A DNA stretch of 64,000 nucleotides, from the NCBI GenBank assembly GCA_026388185.1, contig JAPLKG010000008.1, forward strand, positions 337,149 through 401,148, read 5' to 3'. This DNA comes from Candidatus Eisenbacteria bacterium. GTDB lineage: Bacteria > Eisenbacteria > RBG-16-71-46 > JAFGJU01. The translations under genes were made by a program, and so were the position numbers. Under the pieces are notes generated by a model, which saw only the letters and a program-made list of their open reading frames with translations, was not told the DNA's origin and ran no database searches. Position 1 is the stretch's first letter; every line of letters starts with the position of its first letter. This document shows, in pieces, positions 4,280-23,700 of the stretch.

Positions 4280-4372
4280 CTGAACGTTCCTCGTGGTTTC
4301 GGTGCTTTCCGATGACTATCTATAATCGGAGAAAATGGTTTTCGATCTTACTGCTGCCATCTTGGGAAACGG

Positions 4373-4786: not shown

Positions 4787-5065
4787 TACGTGCTCCCAAT
4801 TGGTGACTGAAATCCGTTTATTGGATTCCGGGTCCTCAGAGGCGTAAGTTGCGATACAAGGACTGCTCAGCACATCGGCCCGGACCGTTGCATCCAGCTT
4901 CTCAAGCCGGAAGGATTAGCACTATTCTTCGTTCTCAACGATAATGGCCCTGCTTTCGGACAGGGAAGCAGGTTAAGAGAATACTCTACCACTCCCGCGA
5001 ACTGTTGGCCAGCCGTCTTCTTTCCTTATAGGTACTCGTGCGCACATTAACGCTCTCTTCGCTAC

Positions 5066-5220: not shown

Positions 5221-6211
5221 TCCCCCCACAAAAATGATCCACTCATAATGTGAGTTTTCTGGCAAGATCTCTGTTTCTGGAAGGGGGTTTCGTCCATGAG
5301 GAAGTCGAAGTTCAGCGAGGAACAGGTTGCGTTTGCGTTGCGGCAGGCGGAGACGGGCACGCGGGTGGCGGAGGTCTGCCGGAAGGTGGGGATCAGTGAG
5401 CAGACGTTCTTTCGATGGAAGAAGAAGTACGGAGGGCTTGGAGTTTCGGAGCTCAGGCGTCTGAAGCAGCTCGAGGAGGAGAACCGTCGGCTCAAGCGCA
5501 TGGTGGCGGACCTGAGCCTGGATAAGCAGATGCTTCAGGATGTGCTGTCAAGAAAGCTCTAAGGCCAGCCCAGAAGCGTGAGCGCGTGGAGCATCTGCAA
5601 GAGGCGTATTGGGTGAGCGAACGGCGGGCATGCGATGTGGTGGTGATATGGCGATCGTCACATCGGTACTGTTCGCACGGGAGAGACGACGGAGCCTTGC
5701 GGATGCGGATCCGGGAGATCGCAGAGACGCGGTTTCGGGCGTTAACGATAGTCGATAATTATAGTCGGGAGTGCCTGGCGATTGAAGCCGGTCAAAACAT
5801 CACGGGAGCGGAAGTCGTCGCCGTCGTGCGGCGGCTCGTGAAGGAACGGGGCGTTCCTGATCGCATACAATGCGACAAGGGGAGTGAGTTTATTTCTAAG
5901 GTTTTGGATAAGTGGGCCTATGAGCATGGAGTCACGATGGATTTCTCGAGACCCGGCAAGCCCGGTGACAACGCGATGATCCAGTCGTTCAATGGAACGT
6001 TTCGGGATGAATGCCTGAATGTGAATTGGTTCTTGTCAATGGAGGATGTTCGAGAAAGAATAGAGAGGTGGCGCGAGGAGTATAACATGTTTCGACCTCA
6101 TAGCTCGCTCGGTGATTTGACGCCACGGCAGTTCGCCGAGCAGTTCGCTGTGAGCTCGCAAGGTCAGAAAACTCTACTTTTGGCTGGACGGGGTAAGGTC
6201 AGAATGGGTTG
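5221..6211 (+). mobile_element. Decayed IS3-family element
   Basis: The element holds an intact orfA and an internally deleted orfB in the usual order. The left boundary is set by the break in the TPR remnant at about 5220. The right boundary is a guess, just after the end of orfB. The inverted decamer GAGTTTTCTG occurs at 5252-5261 and, in reverse complement, at 6165-6174, so it lies inside both ends. I could not define the exact terminal repeats or a target duplication. Without a complete transposase the copy cannot move by itself. Confidence 0.7.
5296..5562 (+). CDS. IS3-family transposase OrfA
   Basis: An 88-residue protein with an N-terminal helix-turn-helix (FSEEQVAFALRQAETGTRVA, then ISEQTFFRWKKKYGG) and a C-terminal leucine-rich coiled coil (LEEENRRLKRMVADLSLDKQ). 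This is the usual OrfA layout: terminal-repeat binding plus multimerisation. In IS3 elements OrfA is joined to OrfB by -1 frameshifting. Here the OrfB frame is already open across the end of orfA (reading KKALRPAQKRERVEHLQ), so the frameshift arrangement is kept although OrfB is broken. Confidence 0.85.
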   Translation: MRKSKFSEEQVAFALRQAETGTRVAEVCRKVGISEQTFFRWKKKYGGLGVSELRRLKQLEEENRRLKRMVADLSLDKQMLQDVLSRKL

Positions 6212-6212
6212 A
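5586..6212 (+). pseudogene. IS3-family transposase OrfB with internal deletion
   Basis: The N-terminal part (VEHLQEAYWVSERRACDV, ending MRIREIAETR) and the C-terminal integrase part (TIVDNYSRECLAIE, CDKGSEF, NAMIQSFNGTFRDE, RPHSSLGDLTP) are recognisable. They are joined directly at AETR/FRALTIVDNYS. In full-length relatives about 70 residues lie between these segments, including the first Asp of the DDE triad. The deletion keeps the frame but removes the catalytic residue, so the protein should be inactive. The frame really begins inside orfA; 5586 is only a nominal start. Confidence 0.8.
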
Positions 6213-6284: not shown

Positions 6285-7388
6285 CTACTCCCGTTTAAGC
6301 TCCCTCTTCCAAATCATGTCGAGAAATCTGTCAAGTAGTCCAGATGAAACGAAAAGATTCACAGCTTTAGTAGTTTCGTGGGCGAGATTACCCCAGAGTG
6401 CTACCCGCCTGTCTCCCTGGTCCATGGAATGCTGAACGGTTATTCTCTCCTTACTGACTGGGTCTCTTGGGAGCGCTTTAACAATATCCGCGGTCAATTT
6501 GTTGCTGACCGGCCCCCCGATGGCAATGAGCGGACATCTCATGAATTCCTGTTCTGCGAGCAGCCCCACGTCCGTGACCACACAGGCAAACTCCATTTTC
6601 TCGGGACTGCCTTTGCGATTGATTTCGTTCCTCAGCTCTGTTGCGTCTTCTCCATCGTGTATCTGTGGAAGGATCATGGCGCCTACAACTATCAATATGC
6701 TCTTCCTCCAATCCGGCCGCCTCTCCCGAAGCAGTTCACCAACGTTCACTGTCCAGCCCGGATGCTTGTAGAGGGGATCTATCCCATGGATGTCGCATAG
6801 AAGATCCCGTGCCTCGGGAATCTGAAGGTGCTTCCAGTATTCCATGGCCCTCGCAAATGCCACTACTAGCCCCGCTTCTGCGGGGGAGTGAGCCATCGAA
6901 TCCTGACCAGCATGAGATGCTGAAGTAATCTCTTGTGACCCAGCCGGCCGAACCCCCAACTCAAGCAACCCTCTTTCTATGCGAGGAAGAATGGCCAGCA
7001 CACCCTCTGGTGGGATTCTGATTGAGACGGCAGCCCCCAGACACTGCGCCAGGTCAGGCTTGCGTTCCTGAAGCTCAGCGTGAGTGATGTCGCGAAGGAC
7101 GGGAATAAAAGGCTTACCCTGTTCATAAGCTCTGACAACTTCGTTCGTGGTGTGGGAAGCACGGGCACGAAGGAAATCCTGGGAGATTACCACCAGAACA
7201 ACTCTGGCCTGATCGATTGCCTCTCGCACCTGAGTTAGGTAAGTAACCCCGGGAAGGGCGTCACGTTCGTAATACCAGGTCGTATAGCCTGCTTTCTCCA
7301 GTCCCTCAGCAAGTTGCTTTACTACGTCGGAGTTTTTCTCAACGTAACTGACGAAAATATCAGCCTTGCGGAGTCTCGAATTCGACAT
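6285..7388 (-). CDS. TIR domain protein with uncharacterised C-terminal domain
   Basis: A 367-residue protein. Residues about 9-140 form a TIR domain: DIFVSYVEKNSD at the first strand, a BB-loop region YYERDALPGVTY, then VVLVVISQDFLRA and a TTNEVVRAYEQGKPFIPV segment whose Glu sits where the catalytic Glu of NAD-cleaving bacterial TIRs is found. After a linker, residues about 220-360 form an alpha/beta domain I do not recognise, with ILIVVGAMILP and CPLIAIGGPVSNK. The GG-P-N turn suggests a nucleotide or sugar ligand, but this is only a visual impression. NAD cleavage would be the default activity for the TIR part. A weak TGAGG lies 9 nt before the ATG. Confidence 0.8.
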   Translation of the reverse strand: MSNSRLRKADIFVSYVEKNSDVVKQLAEGLEKAGYTTWYYERDALPGVTYLTQVREAIDQARVVLVVISQDFLRARASHTTNEVVRAYEQGKPFIPVLRDITHAELQERKPDLAQCLGAAVSIRIPPEGVLAILPRIERGLLELGVRPAGSQEITSASHAGQDSMAHSPAEAGLVVAFARAMEYWKHLQIPEARDLLCDIHGIDPLYKHPGWTVNVGELLRERRPDWRKSILIVVGAMILPQIHDGEDATELRNEINRKGSPEKMEFACVVTDVGLLAEQEFMRCPLIAIGGPVSNKLTADIVKALPRDPVSKERITVQHSMDQGDRRVALWGNLAHETTKAVNLFVSSGLLDRFLDMIWKRELKRE

Positions 7389-7636
7389 TGGCTTAGCCTC
7401 ACCCTGAATAGGTGTCTATACACCACATGAAATCTACATAGCGCTCAAGTCCGTGTCAACCTGTTGAAACGGTGGAAAGCGCTGGAGCGCTCTTTGACAA
7501 TACCAAAGTTGCATCATCTCACTGACTCTTTCCTTCACTCTGATGAGGCCAGTAGTGGAGCTCACAAATGCGTTGTAGCTTCCACAACCTGCTCGGGATG
7601 TAACTAGCTCGGCTGCTAGGCTTCGAACAACGATCG

Positions 7637-9334
7637 CTATGGCCGAAGCACTTGAAACCTGAATATCACCCGCCAGTCCTGGTTTTCCAGAAGCATCAGC
7701 TCGTTGGCTTCTTCCAGGGAACCGACGAGCGTCTCCCTGTCTTCTGATTGCTCTATTCGCCCCGTAATTCTGGTCAAGTGGTCGACCATGTGTCTATATC
7801 GCTCCGAGTTTCGTAAGTACTCGCGGTGAATACGAATGCTTGCGATAGCAGCGCCAGCCGCCGGCAGAACTATAGCCCAGGACGCCAAGATATTCGTAAG
7901 AGTAGCAAGCTCTGGTCTCCAGTTGGCTTCGAGCCTGCCCGCATGGACGATTGCGACCACTAGCGTCAACGCGAACACCATCGCTCCGGCACTGGCAAGC
8001 CGAGTGTGCTTTGCCCTCTGCCTCACGCTTTTGCTCTTATAGAAAGAGATTTGGTCTTCTATCCATGCCGCCAGCAAGAAGTTTCTAAGATTCTCGAATG
8101 AGACTGTGGGGCTCGGGTCTCCCTTGGGCCGTGCGTCCCAAATCGACGCAAATGCCTTAACCATCCAGTCATCTGGCCTGTACGATAGGCTCAGGGGTGG
8201 TGGTGCAGTTTTGGGAGGCTCGCATTCTATGCCTGCCACCCACAAAAAAATAGCGGCACGCAGACGCTCTGCCACAAATCTATAATCAATCCATTTGCGA
8301 TGCCACTCACGCCGCCAGGAAAGCGCCAGTAACACGAGAATGGCCGCAATCTCACCAACCTCAACCCAAAGTAGGGCAGGGCGAAGCGGAAATAGAAGCG
8401 CTTGAACTGTCACTGTTGCCACTGCAGCTGCCGCCAGAAGGTAGATTGCAACTCCTGCGTTCACATGGTAGGTCTGGTAGTGAGCGGCCAGGAAATCGGC
8501 ACGTGCGTATTGAGAGACCATGTTGTCATGTAACGGCTTCAGAACGTCTGGCGGAAGGGTGTAAGGCGCCCCCGTTCGACCCGGAATGCCGAACTCAGCC
8601 TCAACTGCCGACATACTCCTGGTGCTGCCTAAGCGCTCGCCATTATAGGCGTCCAGATGCCTAAGAGAGTCAAGCGCATGATCCTCGCTTCCCACTCCCT
8701 CTGTTTTCTTCTCTTCGTTTATGCGCTCCAGCCTCTCCCTCGTCTTCTTTGTATCTCCTATCTCGCCATTCTCCGAATTGATCCAGAATACGGACCGTCC
8801 GGTCTTGAGCGCATATTCCACTATCTCCGCCGTGCCCCCTCGGCCTTCCGAGGGTTTCCCGCTCCAGACGGCAATGAGCACGTCGCAATTGTCGACTACA
8901 TACTGACCCACCTGCTCATATGCAGCAGGGCGGGGCTCCACAGTCTTGAGGGCGCGTGGTTCAGGGCTTGCCAGACCAAGAAGGCGCTTGAACTCTTCCT
9001 TCGATTCTTGTGTCTCGAAGTCTTGAAGATAGTCTTCCTCAGGTAATGGAAGTACTACTTCCAGACGGGGTTGCTGGCTGCCATCGGAGACCGGCCACTG
9101 CACAATCTCTGTCGCGACCAGGCGGTCGGCACCCTCGGCTAAAGGTGAAAGCACCACATAGAGGTGCGGCGTGTGATCCAGAAGCTGGTCGATTCGCCGG
9201 AGCACGTCCTTCACTTTCCGGCGAAGAAGTTGCTCATTCGCAAGCTTTCTGTGGCCTGTTACGCCCATGCGCACAGTTGTGGGAATAAGGAGTTCCTTCC
9301 GATCAACTGACGAATCTGTGACCTTGTTTCTCAC
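7637..9334 (-). CDS. SLOG-like nucleotide-sensor domain with two membrane (SLATT-like) pairs
   Basis: A 565-residue protein. Residues about 18-200 look like a SLOG-type Rossmannoid domain: VRMGVTGHRKL at the first strand, then LSPLAEGADRLVA and CDVLIAVWSGKPSEGRGGTA. The C-terminal half has two hydrophobic pairs, at about 288-335 and about 443-498, each followed by a charged helix (WRREWHRKWIDYRFVAERLR and IRIHREYLRNSERYRHMVDH). This resembles the SLATT (SMODS and SLOG associating two-TM effector) arrangement. Published analyses predict that such proteins form pores when the SLOG part binds a signal nucleotide. The GTG start has GGGAGG 8 nt upstream. The SLATT assignment rests on topology and context. 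Confidence 0.75.
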   Translation of the reverse strand: MRNKVTDSSVDRKELLIPTTVRMGVTGHRKLANEQLLRRKVKDVLRRIDQLLDHTPHLYVVLSPLAEGADRLVATEIVQWPVSDGSQQPRLEVVLPLPEEDYLQDFETQESKEEFKRLLGLASPEPRALKTVEPRPAAYEQVGQYVVDNCDVLIAVWSGKPSEGRGGTAEIVEYALKTGRSVFWINSENGEIGDTKKTRERLERINEEKKTEGVGSEDHALDSLRHLDAYNGERLGSTRSMSAVEAEFGIPGRTGAPYTLPPDVLKPLHDNMVSQYARADFLAAHYQTYHVNAGVAIYLLAAAAVATVTVQALLFPLRPALLWVEVGEIAAILVLLALSWRREWHRKWIDYRFVAERLRAAIFLWVAGIECEPPKTAPPPLSLSYRPDDWMVKAFASIWDARPKGDPSPTVSFENLRNFLLAAWIEDQISFYKSKSVRQRAKHTRLASAGAMVFALTLVVAIVHAGRLEANWRPELATLTNILASWAIVLPAAGAAIASIRIHREYLRNSERYRHMVDHLTRITGRIEQSEDRETLVGSLEEANELMLLENQDWRVIFRFQVLRP

Positions 9335-9696
9335 AGATAGGCCCTCCCACAGTTCTATGCCTCACGTTGTTCAAACCTGTCCAATGTAGTTAGCTTAAGC
9401 TGTCTCACATATGCTATCAGACCATGATTCCATTGCATAGGGAGAATCTCGCGGGCTATTGGTGTCAACGGTTCCGCTTACGCCGGCCTCTCTTGCTTTG
9501 CTGGCTGCGGACAATGGTGGAAGGAGCCACGAGCTATGCGATGATTGGGGCTCAGAGGTACTCGCCTCTTGAGAGGCGGTAGCGGATCACGCAATAGGGC
9601 ATTTGTTGACGTCATTATCGCATTGTGGTATCTTAGAGTCCTGTGTAGACCGCAGAGCAAGGCTGCAAACGCTACAGCAGAAAGGAACGGTGGGAA
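9335..9696. other. Intergenic stretch, nothing recognised
   Basis: About 360 bases lie between the divergent start of the SLOG/SLATT gene and a possible small membrane ORF. I see no coding frame with recognisable content, no convincing RNA fold and no strong promoter. It must hold the promoter of the SLOG/SLATT gene if that gene is transcribed alone. Confidence 0.4.
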
Positions 9697-9897
9697 TTGA
9701 GAGCATTACTCTGGATAGGTTTGCCGGCACTGGTTGCGATCATTATTGTTGCCGCCCTCGTCCTCTGGGTTCGAAAGCGCCGGGAGGAAGAGGATCTTGC
9801 GAATTTCATCGCGGCGAGAGCGGCAAGAGCAGCGAGCCCAGAGGAAGAGCGCAGCAGCGCGCCATCATGCACTTCCAGTTCTCCGCTCACTAGGTAA
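9697..9897 (+). CDS. Possible small single-pass membrane protein
   Basis: A 66-codon frame with a TTG start, preceded by AAAGGA and GGTGGGA. It encodes one strong hydrophobic helix (WIGLPALVAIIIVAALVLWV), then a basic stop-transfer RKRR and a short Ala-Arg-rich tail. This is the normal shape of a small inner-membrane protein. No family is recognised and the tail looks random, so it could also be the start of a longer lost gene. It points toward the end of the TIR-NACHT gene, which is on the opposite strand. Confidence 0.35.
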   Translation: MRALLWIGLPALVAIIIVAALVLWVRKRREEEDLANFIAARAARAASPEEERSSAPSCTSSSPLTR

Positions 9898-9948
9898 GAA
9901 CCGGATTCATGGCGCCGTAGGGCCTGATGTCGTCGGCCCAGTAAGCTT

Positions 9949-12765
9949 TCATCTCGGGAATATGTGCGAGGCGGACTGGCACAGCTTGATGCTCCGACGC
10001 GCCAGTTCCTCTCTAGTGGCGGACATGCTAGACGCGACACATAGAGCGTCAGCCCACACTCGTTCCCCTTGTTCGTGTTGACCGGCATGCCACGCGATGG
10101 CACCCTGACCGGTCAGTGCCCGGTACAGCCAAATCCTTATGTCTTTTTCACGGCAAAGGTCGGCAACGCTCTGATACCACTTTAGCGCCTCTGCCGAATC
10201 TCCTTGCACATGCGCAAGCGCTCCCAATTCCATTTCGTATTCAGCAAGCAGTTCCCCATGCTGCCGCTTTAGTAGCTTGCTGCCGGCCATCTCCAACCAT
10301 TTGGCTCCTTCCTTGAGATCGCCCCGGACCAGTGCACACCAGCCCAAAGCCAATCTTGCCTCTAGAGTATAGTAGAGATCGTGCACGCGTTCGGCCTCAC
10401 ACAAAGCTTCCCGGAAAGCCGCGTCCGTTTGTCCAGGAGTCCAGCCTTCAAGCAGTGCCCGGTCGTACTCAAGCCAACCGCGGAGCATGAGCAGCCGCGC
10501 CTTTTCAAGATGAACCTGCTCCGTTTCACTGAGCTTGGCCGCGAGTTGCAGATATGAGTCTGTTTCATCGTATCTGCCGGCAGCTTTGTGGACCGTCGCA
10601 ATCATGCGCGCGGCGGCAACAATGTGCCGGATATCGTGGGCCTGCCGCGCCTGTCGTAGGCCCCATGTCGCTTGGCGCATGACCTCCTCGAATTCGTAGC
10701 GCGCATAAGCGACTGTGGCCAGTCCAATCAGATTCGCCGCTGCTTCATCGTGATGGATCGGCATCCCCCACAGACAAAGACGCAGGGCCTGACAATAGCA
10801 TCGCTTGGCGCTGACCGTGTCCCCATCGTAGAGATGCAACGAACCCAATTCGTGCAGTGCTATCGCCCGAATCCGACGCCCTCGCCACCAAGAGGTTCGG
10901 GCCAGTGCGTAATTCAATCTCTCGCGCGCCTCTTGGTATTCTCCTCTCAAGCTGCATATCCTGGCAGCCTGCGTGGCGAGCCCTGCGGCTTGCATCGGAC
11001 TGTGCTCCGGCTTTTCGAGGTGACGGATCAGGGCGTCGAGACAGTACAGGCCAGTGTTGCCTTCGCCTTGCTCAACCCAGCGGGTTACGAGGTTCATCTC
11101 AGAGTCGAACACGAGATGCCTCAGGTCATGCCACCGCCTTGCCTCAACCAGATGCACCGGTAAATGGCGTGTGGCGTAGGGTGACATTGCCTTTGTGTCG
11201 GACTCATACTCCTTCCAGCAGGCACTCGCCAGTTGTTGATGCCCGGCCTGCGTAGAAATCGCGTATTCTAGGCTGTATTTCGCCTCCGTGAGCCAGTCCG
11301 CAAGACTGGAGTGAAAGAGTCTGATTCCTTCTTCGCGCCACCTTAGAAACTGCGCCAGATCGAGCAGGCCACAGCGGACGCCCGGCTCCTCTCCATTGAC
11401 AGCACTGACCAGGAGTCTCTCGGGAATCGGTTCACGCGCTGCCACGAGGCAATTGAGCAGCGGCAATATCTTGAGTTCGTAGGCTTTGATGTCCTTGAAC
11501 CGTTTCTGGAACAGCGAGTAGTACAGCCCTTTCAGTTCCGGGGGGATTGCCCCAATGTCCTGATGGCCCAGGCGTCTCTCCGGATCAGTGAGTGCTTCCA
11601 GAACCGTGTGGGCATATAGGAAATTGCCTTCAGCCCGTGTCTGCAGGCGAACGCATGTCGCCTCCAATTCCGAGTCCGACGAAGCGATCGACTCGATCTG
11701 AGAAAGTCTCTGTCGGACGTACGCCGCGACGTCCTCCTGATTTCTCTCTCGTTCGGCGCTCAGATCGAGGGTCTTGAAGCGGGCCAGGCGGATGAGAATG
11801 CTGGATACGGGTCGGGTGGTAACGACGATTCTAAGCCATGCAGGCAGTGTGTCAGCATGTTCTGCCAACAGGTCAACGATCGTCTCGCCTTCCATGGACG
11901 TTGCCTCATCCAGCGAATCCACAACCACTAACCTGGGTCCATCGGGTGCCGGCATCTTGCGGGTCGGCTCGACGATCAACTCCCGGAAGGCATCATTGGC
12001 GTTCGGCCGTCGGGCTTGTGGATAGGCCGGTTCGACTGCGGAATCATAGCCCTGCAACTCCGAATAGAATTGGGCAACCAGTGATGTCACTAACTCGTAT
12101 GGATTGAGCGTACGTCTATTTCGGGTTGTGCAAAAGTGGATGCCGATAACATGTACAGGCCGCGTTTGACACAACCAGGCAGCAATCGCGCTCTTTCCAG
12201 CGCCTGGTTCGCCCACGACAACGAACACTCGATCTGACGCATCATGCAACCAGTGACTGATTCGTTGTCTCAGCCAATCCCGTCCCACAAAACCGAATCC
12301 GTACTGGGCAATCTCAGGCCCGAAGTCAAGTGGGGTCAGACCACTGACGGTCGGCAGCGCCGGTGGCAACAGGACATCTTCGGCTCCTGCTAGGAATTCG
12401 CGCAGGCGACGTAGACCCTCATCATAGTTGCGCGTAAAATCAACCCAGTTCCGACGAACCAGCGGCAATGTGAACTGAGCATCTGGTGAAACTCGTGCCG
12501 GAATCACTGGACGTGGCAACACCAGCGCAAACGCCACTTCATCGCGGCAGACGCTATCTTCACGCGTAGCATGTGGCGTCAAGACCGCGACCAGTAGAGA
12601 CGAATCCAGGATTGCGCGTTCAATGGCAGCGTCCCAAGGCTGGCTGAGCCTGATGCCAGACTCATCCCACCACACTACGTAGCCTGTCGTCTCGAGATCG
12701 CGTCTCAGCCGTCCGGCAAAAGCCTCACCGTCTGCGTGACCGTAGCTTATGAATATCTGCTTCAC
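9949..12765 (-). CDS. TIR - NACHT (STAND NTPase) - TPR protein
   Basis: 938 residues from a GTG at 12765. TIR domain at residues about 1-110 (VKQIFISYGHADGEAF, WWDESGIRL, RDEVAFALVLPRPVIPA). The NTPase has Walker A VVGEPGAGKSAIAAW near residue 183 and Walker B RLVVVDSLDEAT near 280, followed by the arginine-rich IVVTTRPVSS. From about residue 570 to the end there are TPR-like helices (GEYQEARERLNYAL, AAGRYDETDSYLQLA). The order effector-NTPase-sensor is that of STAND immune receptors; TIR activation would be expected to consume NAD. The frame is open further upstream to 12912, but that part is a relic of another gene, so I prefer the GTG right before the first TIR strand (AAGGTGG about 10 nt upstream). 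Confidence 0.8.
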   Translation of the reverse strand: MKQIFISYGHADGEAFAGRLRRDLETTGYVVWWDESGIRLSQPWDAAIERAILDSSLLVAVLTPHATREDSVCRDEVAFALVLPRPVIPARVSPDAQFTLPLVRRNWVDFTRNYDEGLRRLREFLAGAEDVLLPPALPTVSGLTPLDFGPEIAQYGFGFVGRDWLRQRISHWLHDASDRVFVVVGEPGAGKSAIAAWLCQTRPVHVIGIHFCTTRNRRTLNPYELVTSLVAQFYSELQGYDSAVEPAYPQARRPNANDAFRELIVEPTRKMPAPDGPRLVVVDSLDEATSMEGETIVDLLAEHADTLPAWLRIVVTTRPVSSILIRLARFKTLDLSAERERNQEDVAAYVRQRLSQIESIASSDSELEATCVRLQTRAEGNFLYAHTVLEALTDPERRLGHQDIGAIPPELKGLYYSLFQKRFKDIKAYELKILPLLNCLVAAREPIPERLLVSAVNGEEPGVRCGLLDLAQFLRWREEGIRLFHSSLADWLTEAKYSLEYAISTQAGHQQLASACWKEYESDTKAMSPYATRHLPVHLVEARRWHDLRHLVFDSEMNLVTRWVEQGEGNTGLYCLDALIRHLEKPEHSPMQAAGLATQAARICSLRGEYQEARERLNYALARTSWWRGRRIRAIALHELGSLHLYDGDTVSAKRCYCQALRLCLWGMPIHHDEAAANLIGLATVAYARYEFEEVMRQATWGLRQARQAHDIRHIVAAARMIATVHKAAGRYDETDSYLQLAAKLSETEQVHLEKARLLMLRGWLEYDRALLEGWTPGQTDAAFREALCEAERVHDLYYTLEARLALGWCALVRGDLKEGAKWLEMAGSKLLKRQHGELLAEYEMELGALAHVQGDSAEALKWYQSVADLCREKDIRIWLYRALTGQGAIAWHAGQHEQGERVWADALCVASSMSATREELARRSIKLCQSASHIFPR

Positions 12766-12960
12766 TGCCGCCACCTTCGACTGCACCAACGGAAGCGCCG
12801 AATGCCAAGGCCATTCTGTACCCCGCTGCGGCGACGCTGCCCCGTTGATACCCAGAACCTTGACCGTTAATGGAATAATATCAGAGGTCACGGTGTCAAT
12901 CCAATACTCCATTGGCTTCAGCAGGCTGGATTCCTCCGTGTCTGAGCGGCAGATTTTTGG
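12766..12960 (-). pseudogene. Remnant of a SLOG-like domain, paralogous to the 1.8-4.3 kb protein
   Basis: Translation of this stretch gives EYWIDTVTSDIIPLTVKVLG, which aligns with QYWTDIVTSDIKPSSVKVLG in the RelA/SpoT-SLOG-RyR protein; over a 23-residue overlap about 16 match. A frame change then follows, and the next segment in a second frame reads YRMALAFGASVGAVEGG against YRIALALGAVVGIVEGS. The fragment therefore carries a frameshift and lacks both ends. It lies directly before the TIR-NACHT start codon and explains the odd N-terminal extension of that reading frame. Confidence 0.75.
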
Positions 12961-13052
12961 GTACCACCGGAAAGGCCCTTCCCTGAGCTTAAGAATCGAC
13001 TAGCCCACGGCAGTTGTAGTTGTGTTGCTGTAGGCACATGATGGATGTCTTC

Positions 13053-13081
13053 CATTGTGTTAGCGGTATTCTAGTGATATA
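13053..13081 (+). promoter_or_regulatory. Possible sigma70 promoter for the DUF4062-TPR gene
   Basis: TTGTGT at 13053-13058 and TATATA at 13076-13081 are 17 bp apart, about 100 bp before the ATG at 13182. The -35 box is a poor match, so this is tentative. Confidence 0.3.
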
Positions 13082-13181
13082 TTGCAGGATGCGCAGTGTG
13101 AACGTAGTTGGTGAAGTGAGTCGGCATCCATCAGCACATCGATTTCATGAGTCTGTTCTCGTCCTTTCTGGGGAGTAATTC

Positions 13182-15344
13182 ATGGCAATTACTAAGAAGG
13201 AAGTGTTCATCAGCTCGAATTTCGACGAGTTTCCTGATTTGAGAAGAGAGCTGAGGGATCTGATCAACTCCAATCGTATCTTTTCTATGCAAGCAATAGA
13301 TCTAAATGAAAATCGTGCCATTGGCCGACCCCCCCTCGTAAACAGCATTGATGCAGTCAAACGATCAGAAGTCATGGTTCTTCTTGTCGGTGAACAATAT
13401 GGCGGAATCCCTTCCGGAGAACATCTTAGCTATTGTCACCTTGAGTATCGTGCTGCTCTCGAGAGCGATTGCGGAAGTGTCATTCTGCCGTATTTTTTTG
13501 GCTCTGAACCTGACGGAATGCGAAGAGGCGCGAGCGATCCCAGACTGTCCACCTGGCAGAGAGAGATTCTTGACAACCACACAGTTGCATTTTATCAGAC
13601 CGCGTCTGTGGATTGGCCTGCTGTTGCTCAGTTGATATTCCAGGATGTTCAGAAAGCGCAGTACGATCTACTAACCGGAACTGATCAGATGGAGGTGGAT
13701 GCAGCCGATGATACCGACAAGGAGTTCGGAGCTTTGGACCTGGCATCTCTGACCGTCGAAGAGTTAGCGTACCTGGAACGGCGATCTGGCGTCGATCCTT
13801 CCAATCTAGGAGAAGAAAAACTGAGGAGCAAGATTGATCTTGCCACAATGCCGGCAAGAGCAGCGGCCTTGGAACAAAGAGCAGAAGCCCTTCGGGCACT
13901 CAAGCTCGGAGAACGAAAACTTGCCGTAGAACACCTCCGTCGGGCACTCCAACAACGCCCACTAGACATGGAAGTCAATTACTGGCTTTCTCGTCTTCTA
14001 GTTTCAACCGGAAGACGAAAGGAGTGCAAGGAAGCTGTGCAGCTTGCACTGCGCTCCGCAAACCTAGCTACGCATGAAGAGCCCCCGCGTGATGTTCGCG
14101 CTGCTGCAGCTTACATAGTAGCATCTCAAGCTGAAGCCAAAATCCGAAATCTGGAGTCAGCACTGAGATACGCGGAAGCGGCCAATCAGATTGCTCCATG
14201 GTTTGCGGCCCCTTATATCCAGCTTGCCTGCGTCTATGCTCTGCAAGACGATCTAGACGCGGCCTTCAAATCCGCTGGAGAGGCTTTCAATCGACATCCT
14301 GTGAGTATACTGAAGTTAAATCGGGAACCCTTATTCCAACGCGTCTCCCCCCAGTTTCGGGAGTTCAAGCAAGATCTTCGCGGGAAACTGCAGGCGAAAT
14401 TGAGAGCTATTCTAGACGCAGAGCTACAGATACTCTCAAGCTTGTCCTTGGATCCAGATGCTGAGGTTAGAAAATCTGAGGTCGGCAGTGTCATGGCCAG
14501 ACTGGGCTCCATGACAATTATGGATTTGGTACATCAAGGGAGATCGTCGGGAAAGAACTGCCTCCGTTGGCTTCAGGGTGAGCTCGTAGAGATACGAACT
14601 ATGCGGGAGCAAGATGCAAAGCGTGACACCATGAGGCGAGCGGATCTTCTTGCACTCGAAGATCAGTGGACGCAGGAGCATCCTCTCCCAGAAGTCGACC
14701 CAAAGGAAGCCAAACCGTACTATATCGTTCTAACGACCATTGTGCTTTCGATTGTAGGTCTATTTGTTGGCATTGGGTTCGGGAAGGCAATGCTATTCGT
14801 CGTGCTCTCTCTCTTGGGCATTGCGAATGACATTCGCAGGATTCTTCAACGGAAGGGCAAGAAGCGGCTTGCAGAGGAAGAAAGAAACTCGCTGCTGGCA
14901 CGCCATAAAAGCAAAGTGGAGGCAGAGAGACGTGACAGGCAGCAAGAAATCGAGAACGAGAAAGCCGAACATCGCCGGCGAATATCTGTGTTTGAAGATA
15001 ACGTGCGCCTTTTTGAAACGACCGTTGTCAGGTGGAACATGTTCAGCCCCAGCGTTGGAAACAAAGGCGCGAAGCAGGGAGACATAATCAGAGTTAGTGT
15101 CCTGGAGCCTGAGCGCGCCGACAAACCCGTAACAGATTCACAGTTGCTTCCTCCGGATCTGCTCGGCTCCGCTCTTATGCCCTGGTTCGCGAAGACTCCA
15201 AAGGCTGAGGTGAGCTCGAGCAGGGAGACCTCCGAGGTCCCGAGTGCCGCTGCAGAGCCGCAATATCAACTCTTTCGTATTTTAAGCGCGACCCGCGACA
15301 AGGTTGCAGCAGCAAGATGGGCTGTGTACCAAAGCAAGGACTGA
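13182..15344 (+). CDS. DUF4062 - TPR - two-TM - coiled-coil protein
   Basis: A 720-residue protein. Residues 1-110 resemble DUF4062 (KEVFISSNFDEFPDLRRELR, then VMVLLVGEQYGGIPSGEH), a domain usually found at the N-terminus of STAND proteins. Residues about 225-385 are TPR-like (RALKLGERKLAVEHLRRAL). Residues about 514-548 make one or two membrane helices (YYIVLTTIVLSIVGLFVGIG and AMLFVVLSLLGIA). A strongly charged coiled coil follows at about 555-610. There is no NTPase motif, so this is not a classic STAND receptor; it may be a membrane effector or partner. The start is well supported by GGGGAG 6 nt before the ATG. An HAD phosphatase follows 50 bp downstream on the same strand and is likely co-transcribed. 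Confidence 0.75.
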   Translation: MAITKKEVFISSNFDEFPDLRRELRDLINSNRIFSMQAIDLNENRAIGRPPLVNSIDAVKRSEVMVLLVGEQYGGIPSGEHLSYCHLEYRAALESDCGSVILPYFFGSEPDGMRRGASDPRLSTWQREILDNHTVAFYQTASVDWPAVAQLIFQDVQKAQYDLLTGTDQMEVDAADDTDKEFGALDLASLTVEELAYLERRSGVDPSNLGEEKLRSKIDLATMPARAAALEQRAEALRALKLGERKLAVEHLRRALQQRPLDMEVNYWLSRLLVSTGRRKECKEAVQLALRSANLATHEEPPRDVRAAAAYIVASQAEAKIRNLESALRYAEAANQIAPWFAAPYIQLACVYALQDDLDAAFKSAGEAFNRHPVSILKLNREPLFQRVSPQFREFKQDLRGKLQAKLRAILDAELQILSSLSLDPDAEVRKSEVGSVMARLGSMTIMDLVHQGRSSGKNCLRWLQGELVEIRTMREQDAKRDTMRRADLLALEDQWTQEHPLPEVDPKEAKPYYIVLTTIVLSIVGLFVGIGFGKAMLFVVLSLLGIANDIRRILQRKGKKRLAEEERNSLLARHKSKVEAERRDRQQEIENEKAEHRRRISVFEDNVRLFETTVVRWNMFSPSVGNKGAKQGDIIRVSVLEPERADKPVTDSQLLPPDLLGSALMPWFAKTPKAEVSSSRETSEVPSAAAEPQYQLFRILSATRDKVAAARWAVYQSKD

Positions 15345-15394
15345 CACTCGTATCCCCCTCTTGCCAAAGACATAAAGCATTCGGGGTGTGAAGA

Positions 15395-15949
15395 ATGGAC
15401 CCACTACTTCTGATACTTGATTTGGATAATACCCTGATCTGCACGTGCGAGAAGCCGCTTTCGAGGCCAGCAGATTTCACCTTCGGCGAATACCACATGT
15501 ATAAGCGTCCTGGCCTAGAGGCATTTCTTGAAGCCTGTCGAGGACAGTTTAGGGTAGCCGTTTGGACGTCTGCTACGTCCTCTTACGCTGGGTGTGTCAT
15601 CAGTCACCTATTTCCGCCCGGCTACGACCTTGAGTTTCTATGGACGAGAGAGAGATGTACACCCAGGTATAATGCCGAGACTCGCGAGCTAGAGTATCTC
15701 AAGGACTTGAAGAAGGTGCGTCGTAGCGGCTATCGCCTCGAAAGGGTATTGATTGTAGACGACAGCCCTGGTGTTCTGCAGCGGAGCTATAGTAACGTGA
15801 TATCGATCAGGCCCTTTACAGGTTCTGCCGATGATGCGGAGCTTGAGTACTTGCTGCCCTACCTTGACAGGCTATCACATCTTGAGAATGTACGCGTTGC
15901 CGAGAAGCGAAGCTGGAGGGGACTGATGAGAGGGCCAGGTTCCACCTAG
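15395..15949 (+). CDS. FCP1/NIF-type HAD phosphatase
   Basis: A 184-residue protein with the HAD signature DLDNT (Asp9 and Asp11) at the N-terminus and VLIVDDSPGVLQ as the distal acidic motif. YKRPGLEAFLEACRGQF followed by VAVWTSATSSYA is typical of the FCPH/NLI-interacting-factor branch, whose eukaryotic members remove phosphate from Ser in RNA polymerase tails. Bacterial members are much less studied. It follows the DUF4062-TPR membrane protein by 50 bp and may act on that protein or on a phosphorylated partner. The ribosome site (GGTGTGAAG) is weak. Confidence 0.8.
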   Translation: MDPLLLILDLDNTLICTCEKPLSRPADFTFGEYHMYKRPGLEAFLEACRGQFRVAVWTSATSSYAGCVISHLFPPGYDLEFLWTRERCTPRYNAETRELEYLKDLKKVRRSGYRLERVLIVDDSPGVLQRSYSNVISIRPFTGSADDAELEYLLPYLDRLSHLENVRVAEKRSWRGLMRGPGST

Positions 15950-15982
15950 CCTTGCATCAACCTAACCGTGCTTTCACGATCC

Positions 15983-18169
15983 TCATTCTCGGGTATCCTG
16001 ACCCCCGTCGCGCATGAATAGAAGTACCCAATCGTCGAAATGCTTACTGGCAAGCTCAGGAGGTGGCGGAACAAGGTTTGGGGAGACCAATGGCACAGGG
16101 TCGATGAAATCCAGCCCTCGGGTTGATAGGGCACATCTCCACTCCATCTCCACCCACTTGGATGCCTTGGCATGGCTCGACCAGAAAAGGTAGAAGATAT
16201 CCTGGGCCGGAATGACATTCACTAGCTCTTTCGCCCAGTACTGGCCAGATCGAAGTTCCACCGAGTCCACCCAAACCTTGAGCTCGGTTGATGTTTTCTG
16301 CATCCCTTGGAGGCGTGCGCCAACTGCCTTCTTATCCTGGCTGGCGTAGCAGACGAATGCTTTGCGATGCCTTTTCTCACTCGAAGCAAGAACCTCCTCC
16401 GTCTTCGTGCTGCCAGGGCTGCCCACTTCTACGACAAACGACAACCGTGCGATTTCTAACCCAGCGACACGAATTGAAGCAGTCCCTTGCTTTTCGCCAA
16501 GCGATACGCCTTCGGGGGCACTCGCAAGGAACGTCGCATTACCCATGCTCCCAACCCACAGGATGGTATCCTCCGGGTTAGGAATGATGAACCCTTCCAA
16601 GTTCAGCACCACCGTTAGCACAGTACCTCTTGAGATCAGAGCGGGACCCTTTGTGCGAAAACGGACCGGCTTTCCCTCCGCTTGCGCCTGCGCTCGCTTG
16701 AGAAGCAGTTCACGCTGTTTCTCAAGGTGAGCCCATATGTCGATGACAAACTTAGCTCCTCTCGCAACGACGGGCGGCGATGTCACTGAAAAATGTACTT
16801 GGTCAAGGGTCTCCTTAGGAGCTCCCGGTGAGCCTCGACGAAACAAGGTTCTCAGATATCCTGCTGGTTCGCGTCTAGGCCAAACGGAAGGCTGCCTGCC
16901 TTCTTGTCTGGTGTCCCCCTGGCCTGAGAGGATATGCTGCACAGCTTTGAGATTTCTCTCAATGGCCTTGTCCTTGGGCTCCAAGCTCCGTGCGTCTTGC
17001 AGCAAACGGGCAGCCCCTCGCATGTCCCCCCTGCGCACCGCGTCGTATGCTATCTGATTGAGACAAACTGCCCTGAGACGGCTCACTCCGCTAGATTGGA
17101 CGAAGTCCCGTGCCACCATATCGACTTCAGCCACAGCCCCCTCAAAATCCTTGCACCTGAATCTAGAGAAAGCCTCTCGGAGAGCTTTCTCGTTACGGAC
17201 GTGCGTCATACCTTGCTCGATTTCGTCGCAACCAGGTTTGCATTGAGATGCTTGGTGCAGTTGCTTGTCCGCTTCGTCAAACTCTTCACGTTCGATGGCT
17301 CGGAAAGCGAGGAAGCAATGAGATAACCCAAGCAACAGATGGTATCGGGGAGAAGCTTTCAACGATTGGCTTAGCCCGCATGCTTCTCGAAGAGCGACCT
17401 CAGCTTCCTTTTCAGAGCATTGAGCGGCGGAGTGAAGCCTGGAGGAAATCTCCGCCCATACTAATTGGGGAGTGGATGTTTCGGATGGAGCAGCGCTCAT
17501 CATAGGCAGTCCAAAGAAACACCCGGCCCGGCGATCGCCACGAAAGTAGCGATCAGTCAATAGCCTAACAATCTGACTCACGAGAGTTAGTTTCCTATTG
17601 ACGTCTCTCCAACGCGAAAAGTCGAATTGTTCCCAGGCAGCCAGGCCCACGGGTTCTAGTTCTGCGAGTGTCTGCCTGATATCTTCGAGCAGGGGCTCAT
17701 GCTTGAACCGTTCCAAAACGGCCCTCGTAGTCTCTGCAATCCGCTTGAACTCTTCGTAGCTTGGTCGAAACAGCCCTTGTCGAGCCAGCGCAGCACCATC
17801 CATCAGCTCAAGGCCTGATAACACGCCCTCGACATGAAGGGCAACAAATTCCACAATGCTCTGCAGTTCGGTTGAAGAAAAAGACCCTGACGGATCGTTC
17901 ACAGAGACTGGAACCAAGGGAAGGCGACGGTCGTCAGGGCGTTCCATTCTCAGAGCTGCAAGATCACCATCCGAAGTTTCCGTCGTAAGAGCAACAAGCA
18001 AGCAACAATCTGCGCTATCTTCTCGTCTGGTTGCATCACGGCTGGCGCCAAGTGAACCTTGGCGAAGAACAAGCTGGCTTGGGATGCCTCGGTCTTCTAA
18101 GGCTGAAGACATCCGCTGAGCGACTTGTCCATGGACTTGGCGATAGCTGATAAGAACCCATTTCCTCAT
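15983..18169 (-). CDS. TIR-like domain - TPR - beta domain - TIR protein
   Basis: A 728-residue protein. The N-terminal 110 residues start like a TIR domain (KWVLISYRQVHGQVAQRMSS, then CCLLVALTTE). Residues about 255-420 are TPR-like (ERNLKAVQHIL ends the run). A beta-rich segment at about 455-585 begins VHFSVTSPPVVARGAKFVID. The last 120 residues are a clear TIR domain (KAFVCYASQDKKAVGARLQG, VWVDSVELRSGQYW, VEMEWRCALS with a Glu at the usual catalytic position). No P-loop is visible. A TIR effector at the C-terminus with a TIR-like domain at the other end is unusual. AAGGTGAT upstream of the ATG supports the start. Confidence 0.75.
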   Translation of the reverse strand: MRKWVLISYRQVHGQVAQRMSSALEDRGIPSQLVLRQGSLGASRDATRREDSADCCLLVALTTETSDGDLAALRMERPDDRRLPLVPVSVNDPSGSFSSTELQSIVEFVALHVEGVLSGLELMDGAALARQGLFRPSYEEFKRIAETTRAVLERFKHEPLLEDIRQTLAELEPVGLAAWEQFDFSRWRDVNRKLTLVSQIVRLLTDRYFRGDRRAGCFFGLPMMSAAPSETSTPQLVWAEISSRLHSAAQCSEKEAEVALREACGLSQSLKASPRYHLLLGLSHCFLAFRAIEREEFDEADKQLHQASQCKPGCDEIEQGMTHVRNEKALREAFSRFRCKDFEGAVAEVDMVARDFVQSSGVSRLRAVCLNQIAYDAVRRGDMRGAARLLQDARSLEPKDKAIERNLKAVQHILSGQGDTRQEGRQPSVWPRREPAGYLRTLFRRGSPGAPKETLDQVHFSVTSPPVVARGAKFVIDIWAHLEKQRELLLKRAQAQAEGKPVRFRTKGPALISRGTVLTVVLNLEGFIIPNPEDTILWVGSMGNATFLASAPEGVSLGEKQGTASIRVAGLEIARLSFVVEVGSPGSTKTEEVLASSEKRHRKAFVCYASQDKKAVGARLQGMQKTSTELKVWVDSVELRSGQYWAKELVNVIPAQDIFYLFWSSHAKASKWVEMEWRCALSTRGLDFIDPVPLVSPNLVPPPPELASKHFDDWVLLFMRDGGQDTRE

Positions 18170-18250
18170 GAAATCACCTTGGTTCGCCTGGGGGTTAACC
18201 CAGGACTATTTCAGATAGGCAATCAGTGACGTAGCATCTTAGGACGTGGT

Positions 18251-19198
18251 TCACAGCAGTTCCCATCGCGTGAAGTCGGTCAAGAGCATCATGCTTTCAT
18301 CTATCGGGACATACTTGCCGGCTTCTTCCTTAACAAACTTCGGAATCTCTAGCTGCACAATAGCATTAGTCAAACGCGAGGAGATTTCCTTGTCTGCAAT
18401 CTTGCGACTGATGCTGTCAGTACAGTCTTTGATTATTCTCTCTGCCATGAATTGCAGCGCGTATGCCGCTCTGAATGCCGGTCTAACGTACCGACCGCAT
18501 ATCAAGTGAGTCACAGGTGCTATGACCAGTGCGTTATCCTTGTTCAAGTCGGTCCAGAACTTGCAGTCGCATTTGTGATACATTGAAGATGCGAACGCAT
18601 AGGCGCAGATTGTCCCGTCGGGGACCTCCTCGCTAGTGCGCTTCTTGAGTAGCTTCAAATCAGTGACGCGTAACAAGACGTCGTATTCATACTCCATCTT
18701 CTTCCAGTCGTGCATCCTCTCACAAATCTTCTGTAGAAAATCATCTTCAGCTTGAATGTTGCTCAGAAAAGCCTTCAAGTTCTCTGCGAAGTCAAGAGAA
18801 CCCGGGATACTATTCTCGTAGGAAATGTATCGGAAAACACTAATGTCAAACGGAAATGTCTCATCGCAAGTGGACTCCCTAACCATAATCAATCGGGACT
18901 TGTCTTTTACTGCAGCCGCTACGCCGAGTTCGAAGAAGACATTGGGGTTATATTCCGTAACGTCAGCTATTATGACCGCGGCTCGCTGAATGTGGTCCCA
19001 TATGTCGGCATGTATGATGCCAGGCTGCTGGATGTCCTTCGCGTGGACCGCCTTGAATCCACATTGTCTTACTATGGCATCAACTGCCTTTCTTATACCC
19101 TCGTATTTTGCCTTGAATGGCGAAAGGACGAAGCAGAGTTTTGGGTCCATCCGAACCTGTCGCTCAAAGAAATCTCTTGGATAGATGACGCTGCTCAT
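18251..19198 (-). CDS. Nucleoside deoxyribosyltransferase/TIR-like domain protein
   Basis: 315 residues from the ATG at 19198, which has AGGAGGTG about 7 nt upstream; the longer frame to 19252 is rejected for this reason. Residues about 20-125 show the pattern of the nucleoside 2-deoxyribosyltransferase-like fold: LCFVLSPFKAKYEGIRKAVD, then AAVIIADVTEYNPNVFFELG, where the Asp and the NPNVFFELG motif mark the ligand site. Related domains in bacterial defence genes are thought to act on nucleotides or NAD. The C-terminal 180 residues are not recognised. It lies 81 bp upstream of the double-TIR gene on the same strand and may be its operon partner. Confidence 0.7.
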   Translation of the reverse strand: MSSVIYPRDFFERQVRMDPKLCFVLSPFKAKYEGIRKAVDAIVRQCGFKAVHAKDIQQPGIIHADIWDHIQRAAVIIADVTEYNPNVFFELGVAAAVKDKSRLIMVRESTCDETFPFDISVFRYISYENSIPGSLDFAENLKAFLSNIQAEDDFLQKICERMHDWKKMEYEYDVLLRVTDLKLLKKRTSEEVPDGTICAYAFASSMYHKCDCKFWTDLNKDNALVIAPVTHLICGRYVRPAFRAAYALQFMAERIIKDCTDSISRKIADKEISSRLTNAIVQLEIPKFVKEEAGKYVPIDESMMLLTDFTRWELL

Positions 19199-19772
19199 AT
19201 CACGTTCACCTCCTTCTGCGTTGGGAAAGATTGGTGTCGCGCGTAAGGGCATCTATGCCGTAGCCTGCTCGCTAACAGCAATGTAATCACGGAACGTGGA
19301 CGCTTCGCCGTCATCAAAGCCATCCAGAACTTGTCAGGAAGTCTTCAGTTCCCAGTAGGACGGGATACGAGACCCCATAGCTCACGATGAGACTATACAG
19401 GATACGTTCCCCTAAATCAATGCCATCTGTCTAGCTATGTGACACAAGAGAAGAATCGCACCGCGCGTCGGTGTACAGCAGCGAACGGACGATGCCATAC
19501 GGAACCGCACGAAGCAGGCCGTGGGGTGATCCGTCGCAACAGCACCCCTGAATTGCCCCGCCAATCAACACCCTTTATCGGCGCGCTCTCTGGCGCGCGT
19601 TCCAGGTCGCCTTCCGCCGGGCTCCGAACACTTTTAGGCAGACGGTGACATCAGGAGGAGCAACGCGATTAGGGGCGCGATATTGATGATAGTGATAGCA
19701 ATCGCTGCTTCTTTGTAGCATAGTTGTCGGTCGTGGAATCTCTGCAGGTAGACGAGGAGTTAAGGCCCCATT
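19199..19772. other. Intergenic stretch with no recognised gene
   Basis: About 570 bases lie between divergent genes. One frame of 69 codons exists at 19439-19648, but its composition (Arg, Thr and Pro scattered, no hydrophobic core) and lack of a ribosome site speak against coding. No repeat, RNA gene or clear promoter was seen. Confidence 0.4.
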
Positions 19773-20666
19773 ATGACTGCCCAATCAGATTCCCTCACTG
19801 ATACATTAGGCAGGCAGCGGGATCCGGAACCGCCTTTGCACATACCGGTGCCATCACCATCCATCCTTCTCTATGTACTTCTCCTGTCGCTTGCGGTCGT
19901 GTTGCTCTTCGCTGCCCTTACTTCTGGTACACAAGACTGGCCGAGTTTCTTTCTAAACCTTGCGAGTGAAATTGTAGGCGCGATCATTATCCTGGTCGTC
20001 GTGGAGCGCCGGTTCCGATCAAGCGAGCTCCGCGTTATCCAGCGCGCCCCCCAGACGACTAAGCTCTATCTTGCGACGCTCTTGTCCAGGGATGTGCGTC
20101 AGACAGTCGGTTACGTGCGAGTTCTATCCGCCCAGATGGACGCTGTGTGGAAGCCACACCATCTGCTGCGTCCCCAGATTGAAGCCACTCTGGCTGCCAA
20201 AATTCCGGAGGGATTTGTCCTGATCGGCCAGGCTGGCACTGGAAAGACCACCCTCCTTCATCGTTTGGTCCGGGGCCAGGCAGCAGATGTGATGAGAGAG
20301 CCGAGGAAGGCAAGGATTCCAGTACTCGTCTCTGTTCTTCGCTGGAGCGAGGGCGACGCTAAAGATGCGCTATTTGAGGCCATGCAGAGTTTCTATCCCG
20401 TTTCGGTGAGGACTTTCCAGCGCGTGGTGCAAAAGGGGAAGTTGCTTTGCATCTTCGATGGCATTGACGAGGCGATTCAACCGCCCGAACGTGTACAGGC
20501 AGTCAGAGAATTTCATCTTCAATATCCGGGAAATGCTGTAATACTCTCCTGTCGCAACTGTCCAGATGAGCTCCTGGGAGACTTGAACCTGCCACGCCTG
20601 CAAATACCACCGCTCACAAAAGAGGAAGTGGAAAGGATACTTGAACTGAGAAAGCGGTTCTCCTAG
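19773..20666 (+). CDS. Membrane-anchored NACHT NTPase (short)
   Basis: A 297-residue protein. Two hydrophobic helices lie near the N-terminus (ILLYVLLLSLAVVLLFAAL and FFLNLASEIVGAIIILVVV). A NACHT/STAND core follows: Walker A VLIGQAGTGKTTLLH, Walker B LLCIFDGIDEAI, and VILSCRN at the sensor position. It stops soon after the core and has no WD40, TPR or LRR sensor. It is either a minimal membrane NACHT that works with a separate sensor, or a gene cut short before its C-terminal part. The next gene starts about 40 bp later in the same direction. Confidence 0.75.
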   Translation: MTAQSDSLTDTLGRQRDPEPPLHIPVPSPSILLYVLLLSLAVVLLFAALTSGTQDWPSFFLNLASEIVGAIIILVVVERRFRSSELRVIQRAPQTTKLYLATLLSRDVRQTVGYVRVLSAQMDAVWKPHHLLRPQIEATLAAKIPEGFVLIGQAGTGKTTLLHRLVRGQAADVMREPRKARIPVLVSVLRWSEGDAKDALFEAMQSFYPVSVRTFQRVVQKGKLLCIFDGIDEAIQPPERVQAVREFHLQYPGNAVILSCRNCPDELLGDLNLPRLQIPPLTKEEVERILELRKRFS

Positions 20667-20708
20667 GCCGGTGTGGTCGGATTGTCGAACAGAGAAGGAA
20701 TCTCGCAG

Positions 20709-23700
20709 ATGGTGCCTCGTGACTTGACCTTCCGGGTCTTTGTCAGCTCGACGTTCAGCGATCTAATCGCCGAGCGGAATGCGCTTCATGAGCTCGTATT
20801 CCCCAAGCTGCGTGAGTTGTGCCTTCAGCATGGCTGCCGCTTTCAGGCGATTGATCTGCGCTGGACCAGCAGACGATGAACATCTGCCTCAAGGAGCTGG
20901 AGCGCTCACAATCGGTTACCCCTCGGCGCAACTTCATGGTCCTCCTGGGCGACCGCTATGGCTGGCAGCCGCTACCGCCGCAGATTGAAGCCGGAGAGTT
21001 TGAGGCAATTCTGAAGAAGGTTTCGCTCCAGGATAGGGAACTTCTCCTCTGGGATGATAAACAATCAAATGGCCCGAGAGGCTGGTATCGGAAGGATGAA
21101 AACGCCGTTCCGACCGAATACTGCCTCAGACCGCGTGAGATCAGGGTTCTAGAGAATGCTACTGATGAAGAGAGACGGGAGGCCTTAAACCAGGAGGCCA
21201 TGGAATGGGAAGAGACAGAAAGGGTGTTAAGGTCAATTCTTCTTCGGGCTCTGGACCAGCTTCACTGGCCCGAGGCTGACTCCCGCCGCATAAAGCACGA
21301 GTACTCAGCCACTCACCAAGAGATAATAAACGGGGCATTACGTGTGTCAGATGCGCAGGAGCATGTCTACTGCTTTTTCAGAGAGATCGAGGATTTACCC
21401 GAGGGCTCAAGCGCAAGGGATTCTATCGACCTTGACCAGGCTGGACATCTGGATAGTGGGTCGCGCCAGCATCCTAGAACGGATAAGTAATCACCTGAGA
21501 AGCAAAGATACTCATCCATTAGTCATCTTCGGTGTGTCTGGTTCTGGTAAGACAGCCCTAATGGCGCATGCAGCGCAAAGGGCGCGGGAGGCGCTTCCCA
21601 ATGCCCGGCTTTTTGTTCGCTTTGTAGGTGCTACTCCGGGCTCATCTGACGGGCGTGCCCTGCTGGAAAACCTCTGTCATCACATATATGAAGTGTTCGA
21701 CTTCGACGGGCAAAAACGAAACCTCCTCATTGGTATAAAAGAGACTGGCAAGGAGGAACAGAGGAGACGACAGCGTATCGAGGAGGAGTATTCGATCCCC
21801 ACGGAGTTTCAGAAGCTGTCTGTGACCTTCCGAAATTTCCTTGCAAAGATACCATCCTCAGAGAAACTAATTCTTTTTCTGGATGCTTTGGATCAACTTT
21901 CTGACAGTGACCATGCCCGAAGCCTGTACTGGTTGCCTACGGAATTACCCCAGAATGTGCGCCTCATCGTTTCCTGCCTGGCTGGCGAGTGTCTCTCCGT
22001 GCTCCAGAAAAAGCTGCCTGCTGCAAACTTTGTGGAGTTGTGGCCAATGGAGCCTGAGGAAAGTGAGAAACTCCTGAACCTCTGGCTCCAAGAAGCTGAC
22101 AGGACCCTTCAGTCTCCGCAGCGGGCCGAGGTCCTGGCTAAGTCTCGGCAATGTGGTCTACCTTTGTATCTAAAGCTAGCTTTTGAGGAAGCCAGCCGCT
22201 GGAAGTCTCATACCGAAAAAATAGAGCTCAGTCCTGACATATCAGGCGTCATCCGCGACCTATTCCAACGGCTGTCCTCGGATGTCAACCATGGCGGGGT
22301 GATGGTGTCGCGCAGCCTGGGATACCTGGCCGCAGCCAAGAACGGCCTGACCGAAGATGAGCTCCTGGACATCCTGTCGCAGGATGAAGAGGTTATCGCC
22401 GATTTCCTGCGCCGCTCGCCACGGTCACCGGGAGTCAAACATCTACCCGTGGCTGTCTGGTCGCGCCTTTACTTCGACCTGGAACCGTATCTCACGGAAC
22501 GCAGTGCTGACGGGGCATGTTTGATGACTTTCTATCATCTCCAGTTTAGCAAGGTCGTGGCGGAAGAGTTCCTAGCGGGCCAGGTTAGGGTTCACCGGCA
22601 TGAAGCGCTGGCAGGTTATTTTGGACACCAACCTTTGTGGATCGAGAAGGAGGCTCAAGAGAATGTCAATCTACGCAAAATGTCCGAGTTGCCCTACCAG
22701 CAGACGCATGGCAAGTTGTGGAACGAAATAGAGAAGACCCTATGTGACCTCCACTTCATCGAGGCTAAATGCGCGGCGGGAATGACGTACGACTTGATCG
22801 GTGACTACGGCGCCGCCCTGGACGCCCTGCCCGAGGCTCAGGGGCAGAAGCGGAAAGAGCTCGAACACGAGGCACGGGTCAATAGATATACCGGAGACCT
22901 AATTGCCTTTGCCCGGCGAGAGATTTCTTCTCTTGATATCATCCCGTCCGTTGAGCTGTGGACCGATGAGATGATAAGAAAAGATACTGAAAGGATTGTC
23001 CATAACCCGACCCGTCTCGACCGGATTCAAGCCTTTCTGCAATTTGCGAACTCCGAATGCCATGGCTTGGTGAAGTTCGCTTCGCACAGCGGCTTCCGTA
23101 TCCAGCAGGCTTGCAATTCAGCCGACTCTGGTCCTGTGGGAAGGGCTGCTGAGAGCGCATTGAATGCAGAAGTTAGCCACTGCCTGCTGCTGCATCACCG
23201 GTCACAGCGCTTCAGGCATAACCCGCACCCTGCACTCGTAAGAACACTTGAGGGTCACTCAGGTGATGTGAATAGCGTGAGCATTACTCCAGACGGGAGG
23301 AGAGCAGTTTCCGGCGCTTGGGACAGGACGCTGCGGGTATGGGACTTGGGAAGTGGACAAGATATCTCCATTTATCAGGCGAGGAGCGTGATAAGGTCAA
23401 TATCAGGAATCGAAGCAAAGGGAAGTCTTGTGTTTGGTACGGCAACAGGCTAGGTCATTTTGCTTACAGGCTTTCATCTCGCTGCGGCGTTCCCGATAGT
23501 AACCCCGCTTCGGCTCTGGCAGTATGTGGATTGGTCAGGGATGGTGCGGGGCATTAAGGAGAGAGAAACCTCACTATTGGAGAAGAAAAAGACTCATGGC
23601 TGCTGGGACGATGACATCGCAGTATCATGCCGGTGGTGCGGTCAGCGTTTCCCGGTCTCGGTCGAAATCCTCAATGTGATAACTGATATTGCCCAGAATG

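Follow-up and report, generated by a model that had tools for sequence, protein, structure and literature searches.

Bacterial pseudogene remnants that lie beside live genes are characterized by truncation at both ends, a frameshift, the loss of conserved residues and an intact relative elsewhere in the genome. The gene fragment described here, from Candidatus Eisenbacteria, shares all of these features but differs from the usual remnants in that it lies so tightly against the next gene that every start codon available to this gene falls within it. The neighbouring gene is related to the bacterial TIR-STAND (NACHT) proteins, which are candidate anti-phage proteins, and displays the same order of TIR_2, NPHP3_N/NACHT, winged helix and TPR. 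The parent domain of the fragment, in turn, shares both a profile and a fold match with the SLOG superfamily, specifically the LSDAT_prok, TRPM2 N-terminal type. In the stretch of DNA that was analysed, 64,000 nucleotides in length and termed the window, the fragment is very probably a pseudogene scrap of a second RSH-TPR-SLOG-RyR gene, which diverged as coding sequence, was lost through deletions and a frameshift, and came to be joined to a TIR-NACHT gene that starts at GTG 12765.

The SLOG remnant comprises 207 bp on the minus strand (window 12963-12757) and is homologous to the SLOG domain of an 829-residue RSH protein encoded by an intact RSH-TPR-SLOG-RyR gene (1790-4279, minus strand; identified by Pfam and by a full-length profile match). 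Translation of 12700-13182 (minus strand) revealed two adjoining stretches that match this protein. Piece A (12841-12963) corresponds to RSH residues 578-614, with 20 of 37 residues identical, and is in the frame of the TIR open reading frame (ORF), while piece B (12758-12841) corresponds to residues 613-640, with 20 of 28 identical, and is in a different frame from piece A. The two pieces are collinear with the RSH protein and gave a joint tblastn E value of 1.5e-11 when the whole window was searched; at the DNA level the remnant and the RSH gene share 109 of 153 nucleotides (71%; blastn, E 3e-17) across a one-base gap. A profile built from 14 relatives, from which the RSH protein of the window had been left out, recovered piece A (E 1.4e-7) and piece B (E 7.2e-6) when the whole window was searched in all six frames. 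This search returned nothing significant other than the RSH gene and pieces A and B, and no other part of a second RSH-SLOG copy was detected in the window beyond the 207 bp. The earlier note, made from the sequence alone, had described the segment before the TIR start codon as a frameshifted piece of the SLOG domain that is also present in the RSH protein. On this point tblastn, blastn and the independent profile agree, and the pairwise comparison of the region with the RSH protein, when run, gave a joint tblastn E value of 2e-13. The coordinates given there were right to within a few bases, the homologous stretch being about 12963-12757 (minus strand), and the reported agreement of 16 of 23 residues corresponds to the core stretch, where the count is in fact 16 of 25.

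The remnant spans family positions about 578-646 of ~833, and thus ~69 of ~830 family positions. It represents the second half of the SLOG domain, the first half being gone, so that instead of a complete Rossmann-like domain ~69 of some 200 domain positions are left, in two frames; the remnant cannot fold as a SLOG domain. The change of frame between the two pieces reflects a single missing base, relative to the SLOG frame, in or next to a GGGG run at 12840-12843 (minus strand), which is the position of the one-base gap in the DNA alignment. The missing base may be an assembly error; if so, the truncation and the joint would be unchanged, and only the in-frame link to ATG 12912 would be lost. 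Three residues common to all 15 aligned relatives are altered in the remnant, namely the E of LE, the Q of QYW/QSW and the E of EYR. When the remnant and the RSH gene were compared codon by codon, 30 of the 49 nucleotide differences fell at third positions (p 6e-5), and the excess was evident in both pieces, each read in its own frame. This pattern shows that both copies were coding genes over a long period of divergence, the frameshift coming later. The remnant therefore combines truncation, frameshift and conserved-residue loss in a sequence that was once coding, which supports the earlier proposal that a second SLOG gene had stood at this site.

Three other constructions of the region were considered and set aside. 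Two compensating frameshifts upstream of 12912, giving the reading RHGGIQPAEA, were dropped, as the frame of piece A is gapless to about 12963 when relatives such as L012 and L014 are aligned. Programmed frameshifting was likewise discarded; a stop codon closes the SLOG frame within the TIR sequence, and both ends of the domain are missing in any case. The idea that the TIR-NACHT gene had inserted into a SLOG gene was also rejected, the other half of the SLOG gene being absent from the window.

The TIR-NACHT gene (9949-12765, minus strand) is apparently intact, with Pfam assigning a TIR domain, a NACHT-type NTPase (NPHP3_N), a winged helix and TPRs, and thus the TIR, NTPase and repeat sensor of the TIR-STAND architecture. 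SLOG DNA identity runs through GTGAAGCAG to 12757, and TIR sequence begins at ATA 12756. The joint is located at residue 53 of the longest ORF, at which the Pfam TIR_2 match begins and whose codon immediately follows the SLOG homology. On the SLOG side, by contrast, the cut is in mid-domain, at the start of the helix at model residues 149-156, and piece B, which lies next to TIR, is out of the TIR frame, so SLOG and TIR do not share one reading frame at the joint. The stop codon that bounds the ORF upstream lies just above 12999, and the ORF has its first ATG at 12912. It could thus be read, as the earlier note had recognized, as carrying an in-frame N-terminal extension. All six in-frame ATG, GTG and TTG codons (ATG 12912, GTG 12891, TTG 12789, GTG 12786, GTG 12774 and GTG 12765) are inside the remnant; the next in-frame start, GTG at residue 80, already lies within TIR, and its use would truncate the TIR domain. 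Of the six, GTG 12765 (12763-12765, minus strand; GAAGGTGG upstream) pairs most strongly with the anti-Shine-Dalgarno sequence, at -8.5 kcal/mol, which is within the range of -4.0 to -10.9 kcal/mol for the other genes of the window. ATG 12912 (12910-12912, minus strand), which opens the longest ORF (987 aa), has the poorest ribosome site, at -0.9 kcal/mol. The choice of start codon rests on this score, which is generic and uses the standard anti-Shine-Dalgarno sequence. We infer that GTG 12765, in SLOG-derived DNA, is the most likely start of the TIR-NACHT gene, yielding a protein of 938 aa. Since the remnant supplies every usable start codon, the automatically called protein probably has a false N-terminus of 49 residues, a false or chimeric N-terminus having been foreseen in the earlier note; in one detail the analysis differs, the likely GTG start lying at 12765 rather than 12766. 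Consistent with a later start, the alignment of TIR relatives in the phylum begins only at residue 46-48. It could be proposed, more tentatively, that the remnant now serves as translation start and leader of TIR-NACHT, a former SLOG loop (VEGGGSEA) having become ribosome-binding site and GTG start after a deletion removed or overlapped the original start; we consider this conceivable but somewhat doubtful. A scan for promoters and terminators returned nothing useful.

It could be argued that the SLOG-derived sequence is a working part of the TIR-NACHT protein, translation from ATG 12912 providing a functional N-terminal tail of 49 residues. It is true that no stop interrupts the frame between 12912 and the end of the TIR domain, and that genes more usually start with ATG. 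Such a tail would, however, consist of half a Rossmann-like domain followed by 25 wrong-frame residues, from which the invariant residues are gone; none of the six ribosome sites is weaker than its own, and the tail is carried by none of the TIR relatives found, among which there was no close relative of the whole TIR-NACHT gene. A genuine chimera of this kind is thus improbable. Even less probable is the view, advanced in the earlier note, that such modules are exchanged at their domain borders, recombination between a SLOG and a TIR gene having set one domain before another. The TIR side of the joint does coincide exactly with the start of the TIR domain, but any deletion that ends at the gene start and leaves TIR intact gives the same TIR side. 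As the SLOG side is cut in mid-domain and lies in another frame, and as no SLOG-TIR fusion was found in the relatives, exchange at domain borders is unsupported.

Equally remote is the possibility that the resident RSH gene was recently duplicated locally and that the copy then decayed. The two copies are within 9 kb of each other, and over the remnant region the RSH protein of the window is the most similar protein (58%). The nucleotide identity is only 71%, however, with 30 of 53 compared third positions differing, and L014, which comes from a Dehalococcoidia bin, has almost the same similarity (54%) and outscores the window RSH protein by alignment against the remnant. A tree built from the 69 columns gave the remnant no firm placement. 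Judged by its sequence divergence, the remnant did not arise through recent copying of the resident gene.

The preferred reading, decay of a second gene, is instead that a second RSH-TPR-SLOG-RyR gene diverged while it was working and was lost later, through deletion on both sides and a one-base frameshift. The joint would have put truncated SLOG coding sequence against the first TIR codon of TIR-NACHT; GAAGGTGG, which once coded for SLOG residues, would now act as the ribosome-binding site for GTG 12765, and a start at ATG 12912 would merely add 49 residues of frameshifted SLOG junk. The organization of the relatives may indicate how the two genes came together. The downstream flank could be read in 11 relatives, and in 4 of these a TIR gene is directly downstream of the RSH-SLOG gene, at a distance of 76 nt (L012), 13 nt (L013), 39 nt (L015) or 302 nt (L021). 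The other relatives have Nudix, DUF4062 (as in L019) or unrelated genes downstream, and the intact RSH gene of the window has no TIR gene after it. We infer an ancestral RSH-then-TIR gene pair, and a deletion inside this pair would leave the present picture; this fits better than exchange at domain borders. The deletion itself was not seen, because no TIR-NACHT relative with its upstream region was found; a search of 47 genomes of the phylum, plasmids and viral contigs revealed no close relative of the whole gene.

The remnant is thus what ordinary gene decay leaves behind in a defence island that has been rearranged. Window 6285-23453 is dense in conflict-type genes assigned by Pfam (TIR, DUF4231/SLATT, TIR-NACHT, DUF4062-TPR, a second TIR gene, NACHT and STAND-WD40). 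Defence is a candidate role of the TIR-NACHT protein, which the PADLOC TIR and Avs1b models match weakly. Other damage to the island is also apparent. An IS3-type element (5296-6212, plus strand) is located between the Nudix gene and a TIR gene; its second ORF, the transposase, is shortened to 208 aa, with an rve match that lacks the first 20 positions. At the front of a STAND-WD40 gene, two ORFs in different frames overlap (20876-21490 and 21342-23453, plus strand) and the WD40 part is short, and this gene may be another that is frameshifted or truncated.

The parent family has the domain order RSH synthetase, TPR, SLOG, RyR. Pfam labels the SLOG domain of the window RSH protein weakly (13.8-18.7 bits against a cut-off of 25.4), while LSDAT_prok (Pfam PF18171) is matched by 13 of 14 family members (best E 3.5e-11). 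An AlphaFold2 model derived from the family alignment (mean pLDDT 80.6) has the TRPM2 N-terminal region as its best match (E 3.3e-5) and also matches molybdenum-cofactor carrier and lysine-decarboxylase-like (LOG) proteins; a PDB sequence search with the SLOG profile and a literature search on RelA-SpoT with SLOG returned nothing useful. The family is rare and scattered, with 13 loci among 84,980 species genomes, a count whose sensitivity is limited by the peptide patterns through which the relatives were found. These are distributed across bins labelled Dehalococcoidia, Anaerolineae, Gemmatimonadetes, Longimicrobiales, Thermoanaerobaculaceae, KSB1, Eisenbacteria, Thermoplasmata and Lokiarchaeota, and 399 further genomes from the phylum of L013 contained no match. 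The genome of the window holds one intact RSH-SLOG copy and the remnant. An Eisenbacteria genome of the same class as the window (L044/L011) contains a second, divergent RSH-SLOG gene with an in-frame TAG, so that decaying second copies may occur outside this window as well.

The remnant is, in practical terms, an annotation trap: the longest ORF endows TIR-NACHT with 49 frameshifted junk residues, and a SLOG-TIR chimera could be reported in error when domains are compared. The remnant further shows that the island once housed a rare gene in a second copy. The RSH-TPR-SLOG-RyR family, whose SLOG domain is TRPM2-like and whose neighbours are of the Nudix, TrkA-RyR and TIR kinds, looks worthier of follow-up than the remnant. 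In the window (1790-4873) and at loci L012-L024 such genes recur beside Nudix, TrkA_N, RyR and TIR genes across widely separated phyla, some of them archaeal. NAD/ADP-ribose chemistry is the common ground of Nudix, SLOG and TIR, which leads us to a guess, and it is only a guess, that these neighbourhoods employ an ADP-ribose-type signal that is read by a channel-like partner.
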